This document shows, one piece after another, positions 9,902 through 47,244 of a stretch of DNA of 64,000 nt (within the stretch, counting starts at the first letter, position 1; each line of letters opens with the position of its first letter). Under the pieces are notes generated by a model. That model was given only the letters and a program-made list of their open reading frames with translations. It searched no databases and was not told the origin of the DNA. The translations under genes were made by a program, and so were the position numbers. This DNA comes from Senegalia massiliensis (GTDB lineage Bacteria; Bacillota; Clostridia; Tissierellales; SIT17): NCBI RefSeq assembly GCF_900626135.1, contig NZ_LR130786.1, forward strand, positions 496,001 through 560,000. The letters run 5' to 3'.

Positions 9902-9940
9902 TAAAAATAACACCCACATAAAATGTGGATGTTATTTTTT
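9902..9940. terminator. bidirectional terminator between the permease and HAD genes
   Basis: A stem of AATAACACCCACAT paired with ATGTGGATGTTATT, with a short A loop and a run of T after it. It lies between convergent genes ending at 9900 and 9940. Confidence 0.88.
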
Positions 9941-10590
9941 TATTTAAGTAGCTCGTCCAAATCTAGTTCATTAAAATCTTTTATAACCATATCTGCATGG
10001 GATAAATTTTGATTTGAAGTTTCATCTCCTTCATATCCAATAACTTTAATCCCTGCATTATTAGCAGCTTTTACTCCATTTTCTGAATCCTCTATAACTA
10101 TAGCCTCTTCTTTTTTTACGTTTAATTTATCTAAGGCATATAAAAATATATCTGGTGCTGGCTTTGAATCTTCTACAAAATCCCCACTTATAAGTTCTTG
10201 AAAATACTCTCTTATCTCTAATGTTCCTATAATTTTTTCTATCCAAGATACAGGAGAAGAAGATGCTACAACCATCTTGATTCCTCTATTATGCAAATCT
10301 TTTATTAGAGGTATAACTCCATCTATTGCATTTACATTTTCTTTTAATTGAATATGATCTAAATATATTCCTCTTACTTCATCTACTAATTCATTTACTG
10401 TCTTGTTTAAATTATATTTCTTTTTTAATTTATCAAACATATAATAAGAATTAGTTCCTACAAATTCATCTAAATCCTTTTTTGTAATTTCAACTCCAAA
10501 ATTAGCCATATATTCAATTTCTATTTTTACAAGTTCTGGCTCACTATTAACTATTACACCATCCATGTCAAATATAAATGCTTTAATCAT
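9940..10590 (-). CDS. HAD-family hydrolase, beta-phosphoglucomutase-like
   Basis: A 216-residue haloacid dehalogenase superfamily enzyme. Motif I is FDMDGVIVNSEP at the N terminus (nucleophile Asp and acid/base Asp). Motif II is MVVASSSPVSW, the motif III Lys lies in DSKPAPDIF, and motif IV is IVIEDSENGVKAA. The helical cap between motifs I and II is the type seen in beta-phosphoglucomutase and sugar phosphatases. The frame extends eight codons further to 10614, but AAAGGTGAT stands just before the ATG at 10590, so that start is chosen. The substrate is a phosphorylated metabolite that cannot be specified. Confidence 0.9.
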   Translation of the reverse strand: MIKAFIFDMDGVIVNSEPELVKIEIEYMANFGVEITKKDLDEFVGTNSYYMFDKLKKKYNLNKTVNELVDEVRGIYLDHIQLKENVNAIDGVIPLIKDLHNRGIKMVVASSSPVSWIEKIIGTLEIREYFQELISGDFVEDSKPAPDIFLYALDKLNVKKEEAIVIEDSENGVKAANNAGIKVIGYEGDETSNQNLSHADMVIKDFNELDLDELLK

Positions 10591-10599
10591 AAAATCACC

Positions 10600-10628
10600 T
10601 TTACTTTCTTTCATATTATATGTATAAT
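10600..10628 (+). promoter_or_regulatory. promoter of the fluoride riboswitch transcript
   Basis: TTTACT (10600-10605) and TATAAT (10623-10628) are separated by exactly 17 bases, upstream of the riboswitch aptamer at 10655. It overlaps the 5' end of the divergent HAD gene. Confidence 0.65.
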
Positions 10629-10654
10629 ATTATCATAATTTATCAAAAATAAAT

Positions 10655-10708
10655 AGGTGATGGAGCTCACCTTTAAATATTACATATAATGTAATTGATG
10701 GCTCCTAC
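10655..10708 (+). promoter_or_regulatory. fluoride riboswitch (crcB RNA) aptamer
   Basis: The aptamer has the defining elements of the crcB motif: a first hairpin GGTGATGGAGCTCACC (10656-10671), a TTAAAT junction, a small stem TACAT/ATGTA, and the conserved 3' segment TGATGGCTCCTAC. The 3' segment is also the 5' arm of the terminator that follows, the usual arrangement in which fluoride binding prevents termination. Known crcB riboswitches control fluoride exporters and also cation/proton antiporters, which fits the gene downstream. Confidence 0.93.
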
Positions 10709-10746
10709 TTCTTTAGGATAACTCTATGGAAGTAGGAGCTTTTTTA
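10701..10746 (+). terminator. riboswitch expression-platform terminator
   Basis: GCTCCTACTTC (10701-10711) pairs with GAAGTAGGAGC (10729-10739) and is followed by a T run. The 5' arm includes the conserved aptamer bases, so ligand binding and termination are mutually exclusive. Confidence 0.92.
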
Positions 10747-10768
10747 ATTTTAAAAAGGGGTTGTTTTT

Positions 10769-11944
10769 ATGGCAGTTAGTTTTGCAATTATAATTATTTT
10801 GGGTTTACTGGCTAATAAGTTGTTTACTAAATTAAAGTTACCTGGTCTTCTAGGTATGCTTATAGTAGGTATTCTATTAGGTCCTTATGCCTTTGATATT
10901 CTAAATAAAGAAATATTAATAATTTCAGGAGATTTGAGAAAAATAGCACTCATAGTTATACTTCTTCGTGCTGGACTTGGAGTAAAAAAAGAAACATTAA
11001 AGAAAATTGGAATTCCAGCAATAAAACTTAGTTTTATACCTGGTATATTTGAAGGTTTTACACTTATATTCATTACAATGAAAATATTTAACTTCTCATT
11101 TGAACAAGCAGGCATACTTGCTTTTATAATATCAGCAGTCTCTCCTGCTGTGGTAGTTCCTTCAATGCTTTCACTTATTGATAAAGGAAAAGGAGAAAAG
11201 AAAGCTATTCCTACACTCATTCTTGCTGGTGCCTCTATTGATGATGTATTTGCAATAACAATATACTCTACTTTTTTAGGAATGTATAATGCAAAAAATG
11301 CAAATATCTTAAAACAATTATTAAATATACCTATATCTATAGCTCTAGGAATATCTATTGGAATTATAATTGGGTTTATTATGACTTATATTTTCAAACA
11401 TTATCATATAAGGGATACTAAAAAAACACTTATCCTTCTATCAACTGCAATAATATTTAATAGTTTAGAAGAACCTTTAGAGAAAATTGTTCCTATAGCT
11501 ACTCTTTTAGGTGTTATGACAATAGGTTTCATATTACTAGAAAAATACCCTAATGTAGCAAATAGATTATCATCTAAACTTAACAAGGTGTGGGTATTAG
11601 CTGAAATAATACTTTTTGTACTTGTAGGAGCAGAAGTAAATATTTTTGTTGCAATGGATTCAGGTTTAATTGGAATACTTGTTATAACTATTGGTCTTAT
11701 TGGCAGGTCAATTGGTGTAATAATATCACTTATAGGTACAAATTTGAATTTTAAAGAAAGACTATTCTGTATTATATCATATACTCCTAAGGCTACAGTC
11801 CAAGCAGCTATAGGAGCAGTTCCTCTAACTATGGGAGTTAAAGGTGGAGAACTAATACTTGCTATTGCAGTACTTTCAATAATTATAACAGCCCCACTTG
11901 GTGCAATAGGCATTAAATTTGCTGGAGAAAGATATTTAGAGTAA
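10769..11944 (+). CDS. cation:proton antiporter (CPA-type), fluoride-riboswitch controlled
   Basis: A 391-residue membrane protein with about twelve transmembrane segments of the monovalent cation:proton antiporter (CPA) fold. Landmarks are LPGLLGMLIVGILLGPYA near residue 27, SAVSPAVVVPSMLSL near 127 and the acidic pair GASIDDVFAI near 155 used for ion binding. Antiporters under fluoride riboswitches are a recognised minority class and are thought to help during fluoride stress, either by exporting fluoride-linked ions or by balancing protons. AAAAAGGGGTTG precedes the ATG. No terminator separates it from the superoxide dismutase gene 50 bases downstream. Confidence 0.9.
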   Translation: MAVSFAIIIILGLLANKLFTKLKLPGLLGMLIVGILLGPYAFDILNKEILIISGDLRKIALIVILLRAGLGVKKETLKKIGIPAIKLSFIPGIFEGFTLIFITMKIFNFSFEQAGILAFIISAVSPAVVVPSMLSLIDKGKGEKKAIPTLILAGASIDDVFAITIYSTFLGMYNAKNANILKQLLNIPISIALGISIGIIIGFIMTYIFKHYHIRDTKKTLILLSTAIIFNSLEEPLEKIVPIATLLGVMTIGFILLEKYPNVANRLSSKLNKVWVLAEIILFVLVGAEVNIFVAMDSGLIGILVITIGLIGRSIGVIISLIGTNLNFKERLFCIISYTPKATVQAAIGAVPLTMGVKGGELILAIAVLSIIITAPLGAIGIKFAGERYLE

Positions 11945-11960
11945 AACTGTACCATTTAAT

Positions 11961-11991
11961 TATCCACCTCATATTATATTGTGAGGTGATA
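11961..11991 (+). promoter_or_regulatory. hairpin covering the Shine-Dalgarno of the superoxide dismutase gene
   Basis: TATCCACCTCA (11961-11971) can pair with TGAGGTGATA (11982-11991), with one bulged C and a ten-base loop. The 3' arm is the Shine-Dalgarno GAGGTGAT of the next gene. Folding would hide the ribosome binding site, so it may limit translation or respond to temperature or a bound factor. Confidence 0.55.
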
Positions 11992-11994
11992 AAT

Positions 11995-12486
11995 ATGTAT
12001 TACGATTTTGTAGTTGCTGAGATTAAAGGTGGCCCTTTAAAAAGCGATATTAGAGGATATGTAAGTTTTAGAGATATAGATGGCGGCATAATAGTTTGTG
12101 CATATATTTACGGATTACCTGAATATATGCCTGGAACAAATAAAAAAGATCCAATTGGACCTTTTGGTTTTCATATTCACGAAGGAGAGTCTTGTACTGT
12201 AGGAGATCCAAACAATCCATTTCAAGCAGCAAAGGGACATTATAATCCTAGAAATGTTCCACATGGAAATCATCCAGGAGATTTTCCAGTACTGATTTCT
12301 AGTGATGGATTTGCTCAAATGTGCTTTTTCACAAATAAATTTAGCATAGATGAAATTATAGGAAAAGCTATTATAATTCATCAAAATCCTGACGATTATA
12401 GATCTCAACCTGCAGGAAATGCTGGTAAAAGACTAGCTTGCGGTATAATTAAACCTATGTATAATAAAATGCAAATGAGATGGTAA
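11995..12486 (+). CDS. Cu/Zn superoxide dismutase family protein, no signal peptide
   Basis: A 163-residue Cu/Zn-SOD-fold protein. The metal ligands are all visible: HIHEGESC (two Cu His), GHYNP (bridging His), HGNHPGDFPVL (Zn His residues and Asp) and IIIHQNPDD (last Cu His). The electrostatic-loop Arg and second disulfide Cys are in GKRLACG, and the first Cys is in EGESC. It should convert superoxide to peroxide and oxygen. Most bacterial relatives are periplasmic or lipoproteins, but this one has no signal or anchor, so it is probably cytosolic. The ATG at 11995 is preferred over a GTG three codons earlier because GAGGTGAT is correctly spaced. It may be cotranscribed with the antiporter. 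Confidence 0.9.
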   Translation: MYYDFVVAEIKGGPLKSDIRGYVSFRDIDGGIIVCAYIYGLPEYMPGTNKKDPIGPFGFHIHEGESCTVGDPNNPFQAAKGHYNPRNVPHGNHPGDFPVLISSDGFAQMCFFTNKFSIDEIIGKAIIIHQNPDDYRSQPAGNAGKRLACGIIKPMYNKMQMRW

Positions 12487-12540: not shown

Positions 12541-12610
12541 ATACAATTATTGCCAAGGATATTTTTGTTCACATAGAAATATCCTTGGCAATAATTGTAT
12601 ATTTTTTTAA
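12541..12610 (+). terminator. very long perfect hairpin, probable terminator of the antiporter/SOD transcript
   Basis: The 24-base arm at 12541-12564 is repeated as its exact reverse complement at 12577-12600 with a 12-base loop, followed by a run of T. It is unusually long for a terminator. The gap 12487-12875 otherwise holds only the TrmB promoter region and its leader; no gene was seen. Confidence 0.75.
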
Positions 12611-12875: not shown

Positions 12876-13685
12876 ATGGATAAAGTAATTAGGATTTTAA
12901 AAAGTTTTAATTTTAACGAATCTGAGGCAAAAGCATATATTACACTGTTTCAACATGGTCCTTGTTCAGGTTATGAGTTAAGTAAAATGTCTGGTATTTC
13001 ACGTTCTAAAATATACAATATTTTAGAATCATTATTTCAAAAAGGTTATGTATCGAATACCCAAGACGGAAAAGTTCTTTTATATAGAGCAGAACCAATT
13101 GAACATATTTCTAGATTAATAAAGACTTCTGTAGAAGATGGATTAGATATGCTTCAAGAAAGTATGTCCAATTTTGAAAAAACTATAGATAGTGAACAAA
13201 TATGGAATATAAAAGGATATGAAAATATTATAAATAAATGCATAGATTTAATAGAATCTTCAAAAAAAGAAATCCTAATTCAAGTTTGGAGTGACGATTT
13301 AACTGATCGTTTAGAAGAAATTATTGTAAAAAAACAAAAAGAACTCGGCCGAGTTTTAGTAATAATCTATGATTCAGAAGATAATTACAACACTAAAATT
13401 GAAAAATTCTATAAACATGGTTTTGAAAAAAATAAAATTGCAGATACAGGAAGTAGATGGATTACAATTACTATAGACTCTGAAGAGATGTTACATGCAT
13501 CTATTAAAAACTATAACGTAGCAAAAGGTATTTATACGAAGAATAAAGGTATGGTATTTTTTGCAAATGAATACGTAAAACATGATGCGTATTGTCTTAG
13601 ATTAATAGACGCATTAGGTGATAAAGTAAAAGATGTTTTTGGAGAGAATATGGAGGGGATCCGAGATGTATTTGCTATAAATTAG
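12876..13685 (+). CDS. TrmB-family transcriptional regulator
   Basis: A 269-residue regulator. Residues 1-80 form the TrmB winged helix (LKSFNFNESEAKAYITLFQ, then GYELSKMSGISRSKIYNIL as the recognition helix region and a QKGYV wing). A coiled linker follows (about 85-110), then the PLD-like TrmB effector domain (residues 115-265), with DVFGENMEGI at the end. TrmB-like proteins commonly bind sugars or other small metabolites; the ligand here is unknown. It is the first gene of the operon and its TAG stop lies inside the Shine-Dalgarno of the exporter gene, so the two are probably translationally coupled. Confidence 0.9.
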   Translation: MDKVIRILKSFNFNESEAKAYITLFQHGPCSGYELSKMSGISRSKIYNILESLFQKGYVSNTQDGKVLLYRAEPIEHISRLIKTSVEDGLDMLQESMSNFEKTIDSEQIWNIKGYENIINKCIDLIESSKKEILIQVWSDDLTDRLEEIIVKKQKELGRVLVIIYDSEDNYNTKIEKFYKHGFEKNKIADTGSRWITITIDSEEMLHASIKNYNVAKGIYTKNKGMVFFANEYVKHDAYCLRLIDALGDKVKDVFGENMEGIRDVFAIN

Positions 13686-13695
13686 GAGGATTATA

Positions 13696-14586
13696 ATGGT
13701 ATTAAATATTATTTTAACACTGATTGTTTTAGTAAACGGAACTTTTGCAGTAAAATTTGTTAAGAATTTACTTGCTAATAAAAATGAGGCAATGAATGAA
13801 CCGGGAAACCCTATTGGAATGGCAATTTCTTCATTTACACTTTTTTTCCTATCAACTTTTGGAATATCAGATTTTGCAATATCTACTGTATTATATAGAA
13901 AGTTAAAATGGACTAGTGATAAGAAATTACCTGGAACATTAAATACACAATGTGTTATTCCTGTTGCAGTTATGGCTTTATCATATATTTCATCAATAAG
14001 TGTAGAGCTTAAAACATTAATAATAGCTATATTAGCTCAAGTTCTAGGTGCTTATATAGGCCCTAGATTTGTTGTCAAAATGAATGTTGATCTAATCAAA
14101 AAGTTTATATCTGTAGGTCTTTTAATCGCTGCTGGACTTATATTAATGGGCAAATTTGGAGTTTATCCTTCAGGCGGTAATGAAGTAGGTTTAGCAGGAT
14201 TCAAATTAATATCTTTAGGTATTTTATCTTTTGTTTTTGGAGCACTTAATAATGTGGGAATAGGTTCATATGCATTAACTATGGCTACTGTTTATGCTTT
14301 AGGATTAAATCCTGGTGTTGCCTTCCCTATAATGATGGGAGCTTGTACTTTCTCAGTTCCAGTAGGAAGTATGCAATTTGTTAAATACGAATCGTATTCA
14401 AGAAAAATAACATTATTTACTTCTATATTTGGTTCTATTGGAGTTTTAGTTGCTGCATTTATTGTTAAGAGTATGAATGTTTCTATGCTTCAATGGTTAG
14501 TAGTTGCAGTATTAATATATAGTGCCATAACAATGATTTCTGATATAAGAAAATCTGAAAAAACTGGTGTTAAAGTCACTGCATAA
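13696..14586 (+). CDS. TauE/SafE family anion exporter
   Basis: A 296-residue membrane protein with about eight or nine transmembrane segments and the pseudo-twofold repeat of the TauE/SafE (TSUP) family. Useful landmarks are GNPIGMAISSFTLFFLSTFG near residue 36 and GALNNVGIGSYALTMATVYA near 185. Family members export sulfite, sulfoacetate or other sulfonates and organic anions. It is translationally coupled to the TrmB regulator and followed by an amino-acid/ketimine dehydrogenase family gene, so its substrate is probably linked to that enzyme. Start follows TAGGAGGATTATA. Confidence 0.9.
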   Translation: MVLNIILTLIVLVNGTFAVKFVKNLLANKNEAMNEPGNPIGMAISSFTLFFLSTFGISDFAISTVLYRKLKWTSDKKLPGTLNTQCVIPVAVMALSYISSISVELKTLIIAILAQVLGAYIGPRFVVKMNVDLIKKFISVGLLIAAGLILMGKFGVYPSGGNEVGLAGFKLISLGILSFVFGALNNVGIGSYALTMATVYALGLNPGVAFPIMMGACTFSVPVGSMQFVKYESYSRKITLFTSIFGSIGVLVAAFIVKSMNVSMLQWLVVAVLIYSAITMISDIRKSEKTGVKVTA

Positions 14587-14615
14587 TTATATATAATTTA
14601 TATTTTAAAAAGGAT

Positions 14616-15623
14616 GTGTTTATTATTAAAGTTGTTGTTTTGAAAGATCATGATATTGAAAATGTATTTTCCATGAAAGATGCAATCAAAGCAGATAAAG
14701 ATGCTTTAGAATTTTATTCAAAGGGAAAAACTTCTATACCTTTAAGAACTAATATAAGTGTAGATGAACAAAATGGACAAAGTCTATATATGCCAGGTTA
14801 TGTATCTGGTGCAAATGCTTTAGGTGTAAAAATTGTTTCTGTATATCCAGATAATATTGAGAAAAAATTAAACTCTGTACCTGCAACAATGATACTTCTA
14901 AATAATGAAACTGGAGAAGTTTGTTCAATAATGGATGGAACCTATTTAACAAGAGTTAGAACTGGTGCAGTTTCAGGTGCTGCAACTGATGTATTAGCAA
15001 GGAAAGACTCTAAGATTTTTACCATTTTTGGTACAGGTGGACAAGCAGAGGGACAACTTGAAGCCGTATTAGAAGTGAGAGACATTGAAGCAGTTAGAGT
15101 ATTTGATATAAGTAAAGATCGTGCAATAGAGTTTTCTGATAGGATGTCTGAAAAGTTTGCTGATAAATTTAATGTTAAAATTTTTCCAGTTGATAGCTCA
15201 GATGAAGCAGTAAAAGATGCTGATATTATTACATGTGTTACAACTTCAAAAAAGCCTGTTTTTGATGGTAAACTTATCAAAAAAGGTGCTCACATAAATG
15301 GTGTTGGTTCATATACTCCAGATATGCAAGAAATTGATGAGTATATTTTAAAGAAGTCTGATAAAGTATATGTAGATACAAGAGATGGAGTCTTAAATGA
15401 AAGTGGAGATTTTATAATACCTATAAAAGAAAATAAATTCTCAGAAAGTGATATAACTGGAGAACTAGGTGAAGTAATAATGGGCAAAGTTCCATCTAGA
15501 ACTAATGATGAAGAAATTACTTTATTTAAAACAGTTGGCAGTGGAGTATTAGATGTTGTAACTGCAAGAAGAATATATGAAAAAGCCTTAGAAAAAGGAA
15601 TTGGAAGTATTATAGAATTTTAA
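14616..15623 (+). CDS. ornithine cyclodeaminase / mu-crystallin family protein
   Basis: A 335-residue NAD(P)-dependent enzyme of the ornithine cyclodeaminase/mu-crystallin family. The substrate-side block YLTRVRTGAVSGAATDVLAR (about 110-129) and the Rossmann motif FGTGGQAEGQLEAV (about 138-151) are intact. GDFIIPIKE and GSGVLDVVTARRIYEKA occur at the C terminus. Members include ornithine cyclodeaminase, alanine dehydrogenase and ketimine reductases. The start is uncertain: GTG at 14616 is only one base from AAAAAGGA, whereas family N termini (KVxVLKDHDIE) would fit an ATT at 14622 or 14625. Third gene of the TrmB operon, 29 bases after the exporter, with a strong terminator behind it. Confidence 0.9.
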   Translation: MFIIKVVVLKDHDIENVFSMKDAIKADKDALEFYSKGKTSIPLRTNISVDEQNGQSLYMPGYVSGANALGVKIVSVYPDNIEKKLNSVPATMILLNNETGEVCSIMDGTYLTRVRTGAVSGAATDVLARKDSKIFTIFGTGGQAEGQLEAVLEVRDIEAVRVFDISKDRAIEFSDRMSEKFADKFNVKIFPVDSSDEAVKDADIITCVTTSKKPVFDGKLIKKGAHINGVGSYTPDMQEIDEYILKKSDKVYVDTRDGVLNESGDFIIPIKENKFSESDITGELGEVIMGKVPSRTNDEEITLFKTVGSGVLDVVTARRIYEKALEKGIGSIIEF

Positions 15624-16690: not shown

Positions 16691-17554
16691 TTAATTAAAT
16701 ATACTATTAAAAAATTCTTTTATAGCATCTATTATCTTTCCAATAAATGATCTTGCTTCTGGATTTTCATCTAATGCTTTATCAATCTTATCTCCTAAAC
16801 CTTTAATTTGATTTTTTATTTCATTTAAATCTAAATCAAGTCCAGATATCTTATCCATTAATTTTGATATATCATCAATTTGTTCCTGAGTTAAATTTAT
16901 ATTTAATTCATTTGCTTTATCTTCTACTACTTCCTTTATTTCATTTACATTTGTAATATTATTATTTATAATATAAATTTTAATTTCGTTTATTAATTCT
17001 GTTGCCTTTTCTTTTCCTATGTTCTCATCTTTACCTAATTCTGAAGTTTTTGCTAATTCTTCTGATGCTATTTCTTTTTCTTCTTCAGATATTTTTTCAC
17101 CTGATAAATCTTCAAATGCCTTTATTATCCCAGTAAGGGCTGCTGTACCTGTAACTTTCATAGGACTATTTACCATTACTTTAGCATCTTTTATTCCTAC
17201 TGTTACTAAAGCATTTTTATACATTTCATCAGTTACCCATGTAATATTATTACTATCTACTTCAATCCCTGCACCATCTTCAAGTTTTTCAACATAAACA
17301 GAAGACAATGCTTTAGTACCTATTATACTTTCATCAATATGTTCTAAAAAATATTTTCTCTCTTCTTCATTTGTCACTTCAATAACTCTTACATCTTCAC
17401 CTACTCCAAAGTATTCTTTCATTTCTTCTTTTTGCTTATCGGTTAAATCTTCTCCAATACTTACTACATTGTCACCAACTACTGCATCAGCAAAACCAAA
17501 AGATGATATAGCAAATATAGATATTAAAAGTATAGACATTATTTTCTTAATCAT
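16691..17554 (-). CDS. DUF1002 domain-containing secreted protein
   Basis: A 287-residue exported protein with an N-terminal signal (hydrophobic residues 5-20, probable cleavage after FGFADA). The mature part matches DUF1002: GEDLTDKQKEEMKEYFGV, the VEVTNEEERKYFLE-like block (here RVIEVTNEEERKYFL) and MVNSPMKVTGTAALTGI near residue 130. The C-terminal half is helical and acidic with KATELINEIK and LTQEQIDDISKLM motifs. The family is widespread in Firmicutes and of unknown function, exported to the cell surface. TGGTATAAT at 17585-17593 on the minus strand is an extended -10 promoter. Confidence 0.88.
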   Translation of the reverse strand: MIKKIMSILLISIFAISSFGFADAVVGDNVVSIGEDLTDKQKEEMKEYFGVGEDVRVIEVTNEEERKYFLEHIDESIIGTKALSSVYVEKLEDGAGIEVDSNNITWVTDEMYKNALVTVGIKDAKVMVNSPMKVTGTAALTGIIKAFEDLSGEKISEEEKEIASEELAKTSELGKDENIGKEKATELINEIKIYIINNNITNVNEIKEVVEDKANELNINLTQEQIDDISKLMDKISGLDLDLNEIKNQIKGLGDKIDKALDENPEARSFIGKIIDAIKEFFNSIFN

Positions 17555-45650: not shown

Positions 45651-46529
45651 CTATTCTAAGCCAGGTAATTTTAATTGTTCATACTGATTTTTTTCCTCAA
45701 ATTTATGAAGATAATTGAAGCATTCCTCAACACCATACAATATGCCATTGGATTCACATGCTCTTTTCACCATATTCATTAATCTATCATTATTAGGACT
45801 TGGTATCTGATATGCATATCTATATTTTTCTATATATCTACTCTTCATTCCCGGAAAATATTCATCAAGTTTTTTATAGAAATATTCTCTATTTCCTTCT
45901 CTTAAGGTTAACCCCATTCCGAAACAAATAATGCCATGTACCTTAGCTTCTATACAATAATCTAAGATTCCCCTTATATTCTCTTCTGTATCATTGATAA
46001 ATGGTAAAATAGGACTTAACCAAACTATAGTAGGAATTCCATTATCACGCATTATTTTCAGCACCTCAAACCGTTCTCTTGTAGTGCTTACATTAGGTTC
46101 TATAACTTTACATAAATCTTCATCATAAGTGGTTAATGTCATCTGAACTACACATTTTGTCTTTTCATTGATTTTTTTAAGTAAATCCAAATCCCTTAGA
46201 ATTCTTGCAGACTTTGTTTGTATGGCCAATCCAAATCCATAGGAATAAATGAGTTCAATACACTTTCTAGTGTTCTCTAGTTTTTCTTCTAAATGGATAT
46301 ATGGATCCGTCATTGCTCCAGTACCTATCATACACTTTTTTCTCTTTCTTCTAAGCGAATCTTCTAGAAGTTTTGGCGCATTAATCTTTACTTCTATATC
46401 TTCAAAATCATGATTCATCTGATAACATTTACTTCTTGAATCACAATAGATGCAGCCATGAGTACACCCACGATATATATTCATTCCATTTTTAGCTGAT
46501 AATATCCCTTTTACCTTTGTTTCATGCAT
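45651..46529 (-). CDS. radical SAM protein (spore photoproduct lyase / Rv2578c-like)
   Basis: A 292-residue radical SAM enzyme. The [4Fe-4S]-binding motif is YRGCTHGCIYCDSRSKCY (CxxxCxxC, from residue 21), and the MIGTGAMTDPYIHLE block (about 67-81) is typical of the SplB/Rv2578c group. Also present are QTKSARILRDLDLLKKI, WLSPILPFINDTEENI and GIICFGMGLTLREGNREYFY. Spore photoproduct lyase itself repairs UV lesions in spores, but this shorter branch has no assigned substrate. It lies 16 bases from the PLC-like gene. Confidence 0.92.
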   Translation of the reverse strand: MHETKVKGILSAKNGMNIYRGCTHGCIYCDSRSKCYQMNHDFEDIEVKINAPKLLEDSLRRKRKKCMIGTGAMTDPYIHLEEKLENTRKCIELIYSYGFGLAIQTKSARILRDLDLLKKINEKTKCVVQMTLTTYDEDLCKVIEPNVSTTRERFEVLKIMRDNGIPTIVWLSPILPFINDTEENIRGILDYCIEAKVHGIICFGMGLTLREGNREYFYKKLDEYFPGMKSRYIEKYRYAYQIPSPNNDRLMNMVKRACESNGILYGVEECFNYLHKFEEKNQYEQLKLPGLE

Positions 46530-46545
46530 AATATTCTCCTCATTT

Positions 46546-47244
46546 TTAAATACTTTTTGCTCTAAATTTTCTTTTAGAAGAAGTTAATTCTTTACTAATA
46601 GTAATTTCTCTATTATTAAATATATGTTCAATGGCTTTTGTAGTACTATCTATATAACTATCCATTTCTTTTTTTGTTAAATAGTTATATTCCCTATCCA
46701 AGTCCCCTTCAAAGTCTTCATAAAAATTAACTATATATTTTATCTTCGTTATTATAGAGTTTTCAGGAAAGAACTCCAAGTACTCTGGGAATACATCTAC
46801 ATATTTAAGTATTCTATAAAAAATTGATTCTTTATTATTCTTAAAATACATATGATCCAGATCATACCAATCCTTTTTCACTTTCCATATAAACTTTTCA
46901 TCTGTCTTAAGCTTGTCATATATATTACTATTTTGATTTTGCAACATCTTTGACCATTCAATATCTGATAGTAAATGTGCATAATATCCTATTAAAAATG
47001 ATTCTTTTTCCTTGTTTTTATAATCTTGTCTTAAATATGAATCATAGAATTTCTCTGAATCTATTTTTCCATTTTCATTAAACCAATGAGTTATTTTCTT
47101 AGGTGGTTCAAATTCACTCCAATCTTCATTAGCTTGATTACAATCTGGTCCTAGATTACCAATTAAAAAGGCTTTTTCATCTAAATCAAAACCCAAATCC
47201 AATAATTTTTCTGCAATTCTTATATGTGATCCCCATGTTGCCAT
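46546..47244 (-). CDS. zinc-dependent phospholipase C family protein
   Basis: A 232-residue protein. MATWGSHIRIAEKLL, FLIGNLGPDCNQANEDWSEF, ITHWFN and LIGYYAHLLSDIEWSKM match the bacterial zinc-dependent phospholipase C / S1-P1 nuclease-like fold, with metal-binding His and Asp residues in those four segments. There is no signal peptide, so it is intracellular, unlike clostridial alpha-toxin. It probably has a hydrolase role on a phosphoester. Confidence 0.88.
   Translation of the reverse strand: MATWGSHIRIAEKLLDLGFDLDEKAFLIGNLGPDCNQANEDWSEFEPPKKITHWFNENGKIDSEKFYDSYLRQDYKNKEKESFLIGYYAHLLSDIEWSKMLQNQNSNIYDKLKTDEKFIWKVKKDWYDLDHMYFKNNKESIFYRILKYVDVFPEYLEFFPENSIITKIKYIVNFYEDFEGDLDREYNYLTKKEMDSYIDSTTKAIEHIFNNREITISKELTSSKRKFRAKSI

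Follow-up and report, generated by a model that had tools for sequence, protein, structure and literature searches.

A fluoride riboswitch ahead of a CPA2-type antiporter and the neighbouring Cu/Zn superoxide dismutase gene in Anaeromonas

The crcB-motif fluoride riboswitch with an overlapping terminator is a described layout, whereby binding of the ligand raises expression (PMC2864571). Fluc and CLC-F, which usually exclude each other, are the sole two bacterial exporter families named in a review of the field, and Na+/H+ antiporters are the riboswitch-associated class next in frequency after these exporters (PMC11139923). Such antiporters are already recognised as a class (PMC11139923; PMC11477304), and in C. 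difficile a NhaP-type antiporter and a CLC share one fluoride riboswitch (CD0656-7; PMC11477304). In the six-gene fluoride operon of E. cloacae FRM, several genes, including one for a stress protein, stand behind one riboswitch (PMC5533749).

The locus described here lies in a window (the whole stretch of DNA that was analysed, 64,000 nucleotides) and consists of a fluoride riboswitch, a cation/proton antiporter and a Cu/Zn superoxide dismutase (SOD), each of which is of a known kind (Table 1). The antiporter and the SOD gene are best explained as two adjacent, separately controlled units, with a probability of about 75%.

Table 1. Features of the riboswitch-antiporter-SOD region, in positions of the window
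Feature	Position	Strand	Details and evidence
Likely promoter of riboswitch transcript	10600-10628	+	TTTACT-17-TATAAT; 10/12 consensus match
Fluoride riboswitch aptamer (RF01734)	10647-10714	+	cmscan, 46.5 bits; covariation of P1 and pseudoknot over 24 relatives
Intrinsic terminator	10700-10746	+	RNA fold: 13-bp stem, then U run
CPA2-type cation/proton antiporter	10769-11944	+	391 aa, Asp-Asp motif at 158-159; PF00999, 3e-39
Putative sigma-K-type SOD promoter	11951-11978	+	AC at 11951, N17, CATATTATA at 11970-11978; motif and enrichment over relatives
Hairpin pairing the SOD Shine-Dalgarno (11983-11988) in read-through RNA	11960-11992	+	Fold and pairing probabilities
Cu/Zn superoxide dismutase	11995-12486	+	163 aa; PF00080, 4e-27
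Terminator-like hairpin after SOD	12547-12594	+	20-pair stem

The riboswitch and its target

The aptamer, the only fluoride riboswitch of the genome, exceeded the 34-bit cut-off of the RF01734 covariance model (E 1e-09). Across 24 relatives, 99.5% of the cells in P1 and the pseudoknot were paired (99% in P1 alone and 100% in the five pairs of the pseudoknot, two of which showed double changes), and the number of cells changed on both sides was higher than in every one of 500 shuffles. The 3' strand of the pseudoknot doubles as the 5' arm of the terminator, which folds at -34.8 kcal/mol (z -4.3), so that this expression platform excludes the aptamer. Aptamer, pseudoknot, terminator overlap and the implied ON logic are thus the same as in the crcB-motif fluoride riboswitch (PMC2864571), the differences being minor, namely an A/U-rich second stem and one pseudoknot pair changed from U-A to C-G with compensation. 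The initial annotation had called the aptamer and the terminator unmistakable, which these results bear out. Judging from its features, the RNA is a genuine fluoride-sensing switch that controls the antiporter and would respond to fluoride. Promoter boxes identical to those of the window, as read by eye, stand ahead of the riboswitch in A. frigoriresistens. A gene for a HAD-family hydrolase (9940-10596, minus strand) diverges from this promoter in the window and in A. frigoriresistens, and is missing from the corresponding place in A. gelatinilytica.

The gene adjoining the aptamer was correctly named as a cation/proton antiporter. Its nearest solved structure is NHA2/SLC9B2 (4e-45), with which the Asp-Asp motif aligns. 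Both this motif and the PKA motif, which are seen in cation/proton antiporters, were kept in all 80 antiporter loci of named genomes. The description of this target as the less common class holds in general (PMC11139923) but not in this clade: among the 120 relatives that make up the order sample, 65 carried the riboswitch and 61 the antiporter, which was present in 56 of the 65 riboswitch genomes with coordinates side by side, and an aptamer was found less than 400 nt upstream in 69 of the 80 named loci, including records from Halanaerobium, Fusobacteria and Bacteroidetes. The antiporter is the usual target of the fluoride riboswitch here and not the odd one. As in C. difficile CD0656-7 and the known class generally (PMC11139923; PMC11477304), a PF00999 antiporter lies directly 3' of the aptamer, but in the window it stands alone, in a genome without a CLC-F or CrcB gene. 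Some relatives showed other arrangements: in one genome two fluoride riboswitches flank the antiporter gene on either side (G098:C35:18614-20598), and tandem aptamer matches precede a single antiporter in two further loci (L171:4747-4916 and L156:4778-4895, the second match in L156 being weak).

The antiporter where fluoride exporters are missing

The antiporter may itself be the fluoride defence of these organisms or an accessory to it. The Anaeromonas genomes, four in number, include the window genome, A. gelatinilytica D2Q-14 and A. frigoriresistens D2Q-11, and neither CrcB/Fluc (PF02537) nor CLC (PF00654) was found in any of them. Likewise, 45 of the 61 antiporter genomes of the order sample had neither CrcB nor any CLC. 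In tests that ignore phylogeny, antiporter and crcB nearly excluded each other, both in a class sample of 391 genomes (antiporter in 63, crcB in 76, shared by 1 against 12.2 expected; Fisher 8e-6) and in the order sample of 120 (61 and 14, shared by 0 against 7.1 expected; 2e-5). Moreover, the two alternate within single genera (g67, g113, g119, g145, g191 and g19). As to an exclusion between antiporter and CLC-F, the CLC matches in the class sample were at 31-40% identity and mix CLC types; one genome, G452, has a close CLC-F relative together with the antiporter.

The antiporter thus appears to behave like a further alternative to CrcB, and the absence of CrcB and CLC from Anaeromonas, taken with the near-exclusion, suggests that it replaces CrcB as fluoride defence. 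A wider proposal would make this NHA2/NapA-like protein the principal transporter for fluoride defence, a third solution in bacteria next to Fluc and CLC-F, which replaces CrcB across Clostridia and on which Anaeromonas relies solely. This proposal is tentative and on balance doubtful. About an even chance is given to the reading that the antiporter merely restores the pH and cation balance after entry of HF and is not the core defence, the genus getting rid of fluoride through an as yet unrecognised exporter. The motifs kept in 80/80 loci, the assignment of such antiporters to pH homeostasis in the literature (PMC11139923) and the partnership with a CLC in C. difficile (PMC11477304) agree with this role; the scarcity of genomes with both antiporter and crcB, their alternation within genera and the 45 genomes with neither CrcB nor CLC argue against it. 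Given the conserved Asp-Asp motif and the alignment with NHA2, a genuine cation/proton antiporter that would confer fluoride tolerance indirectly is at least as likely as a replacement of CrcB. In many genomes, a class of genes commonly regarded as helpers stands where dedicated fluoride exporters are missing, a pattern of relevance to surveys in which these genomes are counted as having no fluoride exporter. The exclusion between crcB and antiporter was not found in the literature searched, mostly outside subscription papers, and may be new or may be described already.

A putative sporulation promoter ahead of the superoxide dismutase gene

The SOD gene follows the antiporter on the same strand after a gap of 50 nt, as the initial annotation had it, and the strong hairpin lies 3' of the SOD gene. 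The protein has no evident signal peptide. YojM, a SodC-like protein of B. subtilis, lacks some copper ligands. The SOD of the window belongs to the same Cu/Zn SOD fold family (match 1e-13 to structures 1xtm and 1s4i), but its metal-ligand positions appear complete and were retained in the alignment to 7b4o.

No promoter had been reported in the gap, and a consensus scan for sigma-70 promoters agreed, with no match of at least 9/12, so this type of promoter was rejected for SOD. Nevertheless, the gap contains a putative sigma-K-type promoter, a pattern that arose in just 12 of 5,000 shuffles of the gap sequence. A box of the form AC-N16/17-CATANNNT was present upstream of SOD in 39 of 51 relatives, which share ancestry and are hence not independent, compared with 1.57 ± 1.31 (maximum 6) in shuffled upstream regions. 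Nearly all of these 39 have no linked riboswitch. The spacing of the AC peaked at 16 (18 times) and 17 (24 times), any other spacing occurring at most 9 times. The promoters of sigma-E and sigma-K in C. difficile have a common -10 and differ at -35, where ATA marks sigma-E and AC marks sigma-K (PMC3789822); with the same AC and the same sigma-E/K-type -10, the SOD box therefore has the sigma-K form. The same study likewise puts a SOD gene, sodA, among the sporulation genes, but its product is of the Mn type and sigma-G-dependent (PMC3789822), whereas the SOD of the window is a Cu/Zn enzyme with a sigma-K-type box. Two points count against the promoter. In the window, just 4 nt separate the -10 from the Shine-Dalgarno, which would leave a leader of some 11-13 nt, and A. 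frigoriresistens and A. gelatinilytica have the -10 but a weak -35, their AC being off its usual spacing. In a scan of the window, just one other gene start combined such a box with a Shine-Dalgarno (46529-46644, minus strand), that of a 292-aa reading frame with a radical-SAM-like cysteine motif.

The genome encodes spo0A (6e-127) and also sigK, the latter in two pieces about 18 kb apart (C1:1820402-1820671 and C1:1838604-1839029; L228, L229). A gene for a 512-aa serine-recombinase-like protein (L229, 2261-3799, plus strand) adjoins the upstream piece, and together with the split sigK it forms a skin-like element. B. subtilis and C. difficile both carry known elements of this kind. The Cu/Zn SOD appears, from these sequence features, to be an independent spore-formation gene belonging to late sporulation across the order. 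In the literature searched, mostly outside subscription papers, no sigma-K-type box on a clostridial Cu/Zn SOD was found, and no spore evidence for a Cu/Zn SOD in clostridia; the box may be new, or it may have been described already.

Two units or one operon

A competing explanation is a true fluoride-induced operon, in which the antiporter and SOD share a bicistronic mRNA and fluoride yields extra SOD, perhaps beside the sporulation promoter. The strand, the short gap and the terminator after SOD fit this explanation, as does the arrangement in Anaeromonas, where the two genes are directly adjacent in three of the four genomes. Neither in the window nor in A. frigoriresistens is a terminator evident between them, in agreement with the initial annotation, and some joint transcript is therefore likely. 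Oxidative-stress responses to fluoride are widely reported (PMC11139923), and multi-gene fluoride-riboswitch operons exist (PMC5533749); the E. cloacae FRM operon, however, includes no SOD and its co-transcription was shown by RT-PCR, whereas a joint transcript at the locus of the window is a prediction from sequence.

Three lines of evidence make the operon unlikely. The conserved box ahead of SOD indicates a separate promoter, the finding that the initial annotation had itself named as refuting its proposal. Secondly, the pairing is confined to Anaeromonas. Antiporter and SOD lie close together in 4 of the 26 order-sample genomes that have both genes, all four of this genus, and SOD occurs in the flanks of 2 of the 80 named antiporter loci, again Anaeromonas, and of 0 of the other 78 (flanks of up to 5 kb, some shortened by contig ends). 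Conservation of the pair behind crcB RNAs elsewhere, which the initial annotation had raised as a check, was thus not observed. Even within the genus the pair is interrupted: in A. gelatinilytica an opposite-strand gene of 464 aa, a radical-SAM protein judging from a CxxxCxxC motif recognised by eye, separates the two, and SOD keeps its own upstream box despite it.

The third line concerns the gap itself, where a 13-bp hairpin missed by the initial annotation covers the SOD Shine-Dalgarno. In read-through RNA the probability of this site being unpaired was 0.00 in the window and in G003, and 0.1-0.2 in the other two Anaeromonas. The ribosome-binding site of SOD would accordingly be folded away in such RNA and its translation silenced, as far as the fold predictions go, whereas an RNA begun at the SOD promoter of the window would be free of the 5' arm of the hairpin. 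The hairpin is not a terminator, because no U tract follows it. Comparable SOD hairpins occur in some other genera (L052, L054, L176, L183, L192 and L196) and are absent in others, and their enrichment is modest, with mean ranks of 0.33 and 0.40 against shuffled or swapped spacers (0.5 expected), so the silencing is put forward conditionally; a universal device was rejected for the same modest enrichment. Association of the hairpin with a close co-directional upstream gene was not significant (p 0.08).

For the two separately controlled units, the following mechanism is proposed. In the first, fluoride binding would stabilise the pseudoknot of the aptamer and block the overlapping terminator, whereupon RNA polymerase would transcribe the antiporter; no other gene of this genome, which is without CrcB/Fluc or CLC, is linked to a riboswitch. 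In the second, SOD would be transcribed mainly from its own sigma-K-type promoter, i.e., in the mother cell late in sporulation, in the same arrangement as in relatives where SOD and the antiporter are not neighbours. Polymerase could physically read through from the first unit into the second, but this would give an mRNA with the SOD ribosome-binding site closed. The proposed fluoride control of SOD is thereby left unsupported, and late sporulation is the better-supported context for the enzyme. No link between fluoride riboswitches and SOD was found in the literature searched, judged mostly from titles and abstracts; of five papers containing both terms, one mentions SOD only in connection with manganese.

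Downstream of SOD, the window carries a TrmB-type regulator, a TauE-type transporter and an ornithine-cyclodeaminase-like gene (12876-15623) before a gene at 16691-17554 (minus strand), whose counterpart directly follows SOD in A. frigoriresistens and A. gelatinilytica. In A. gelatinilytica, the last 24 codons of SOD are partly repeated after its stop codon (L062:2590-2660).
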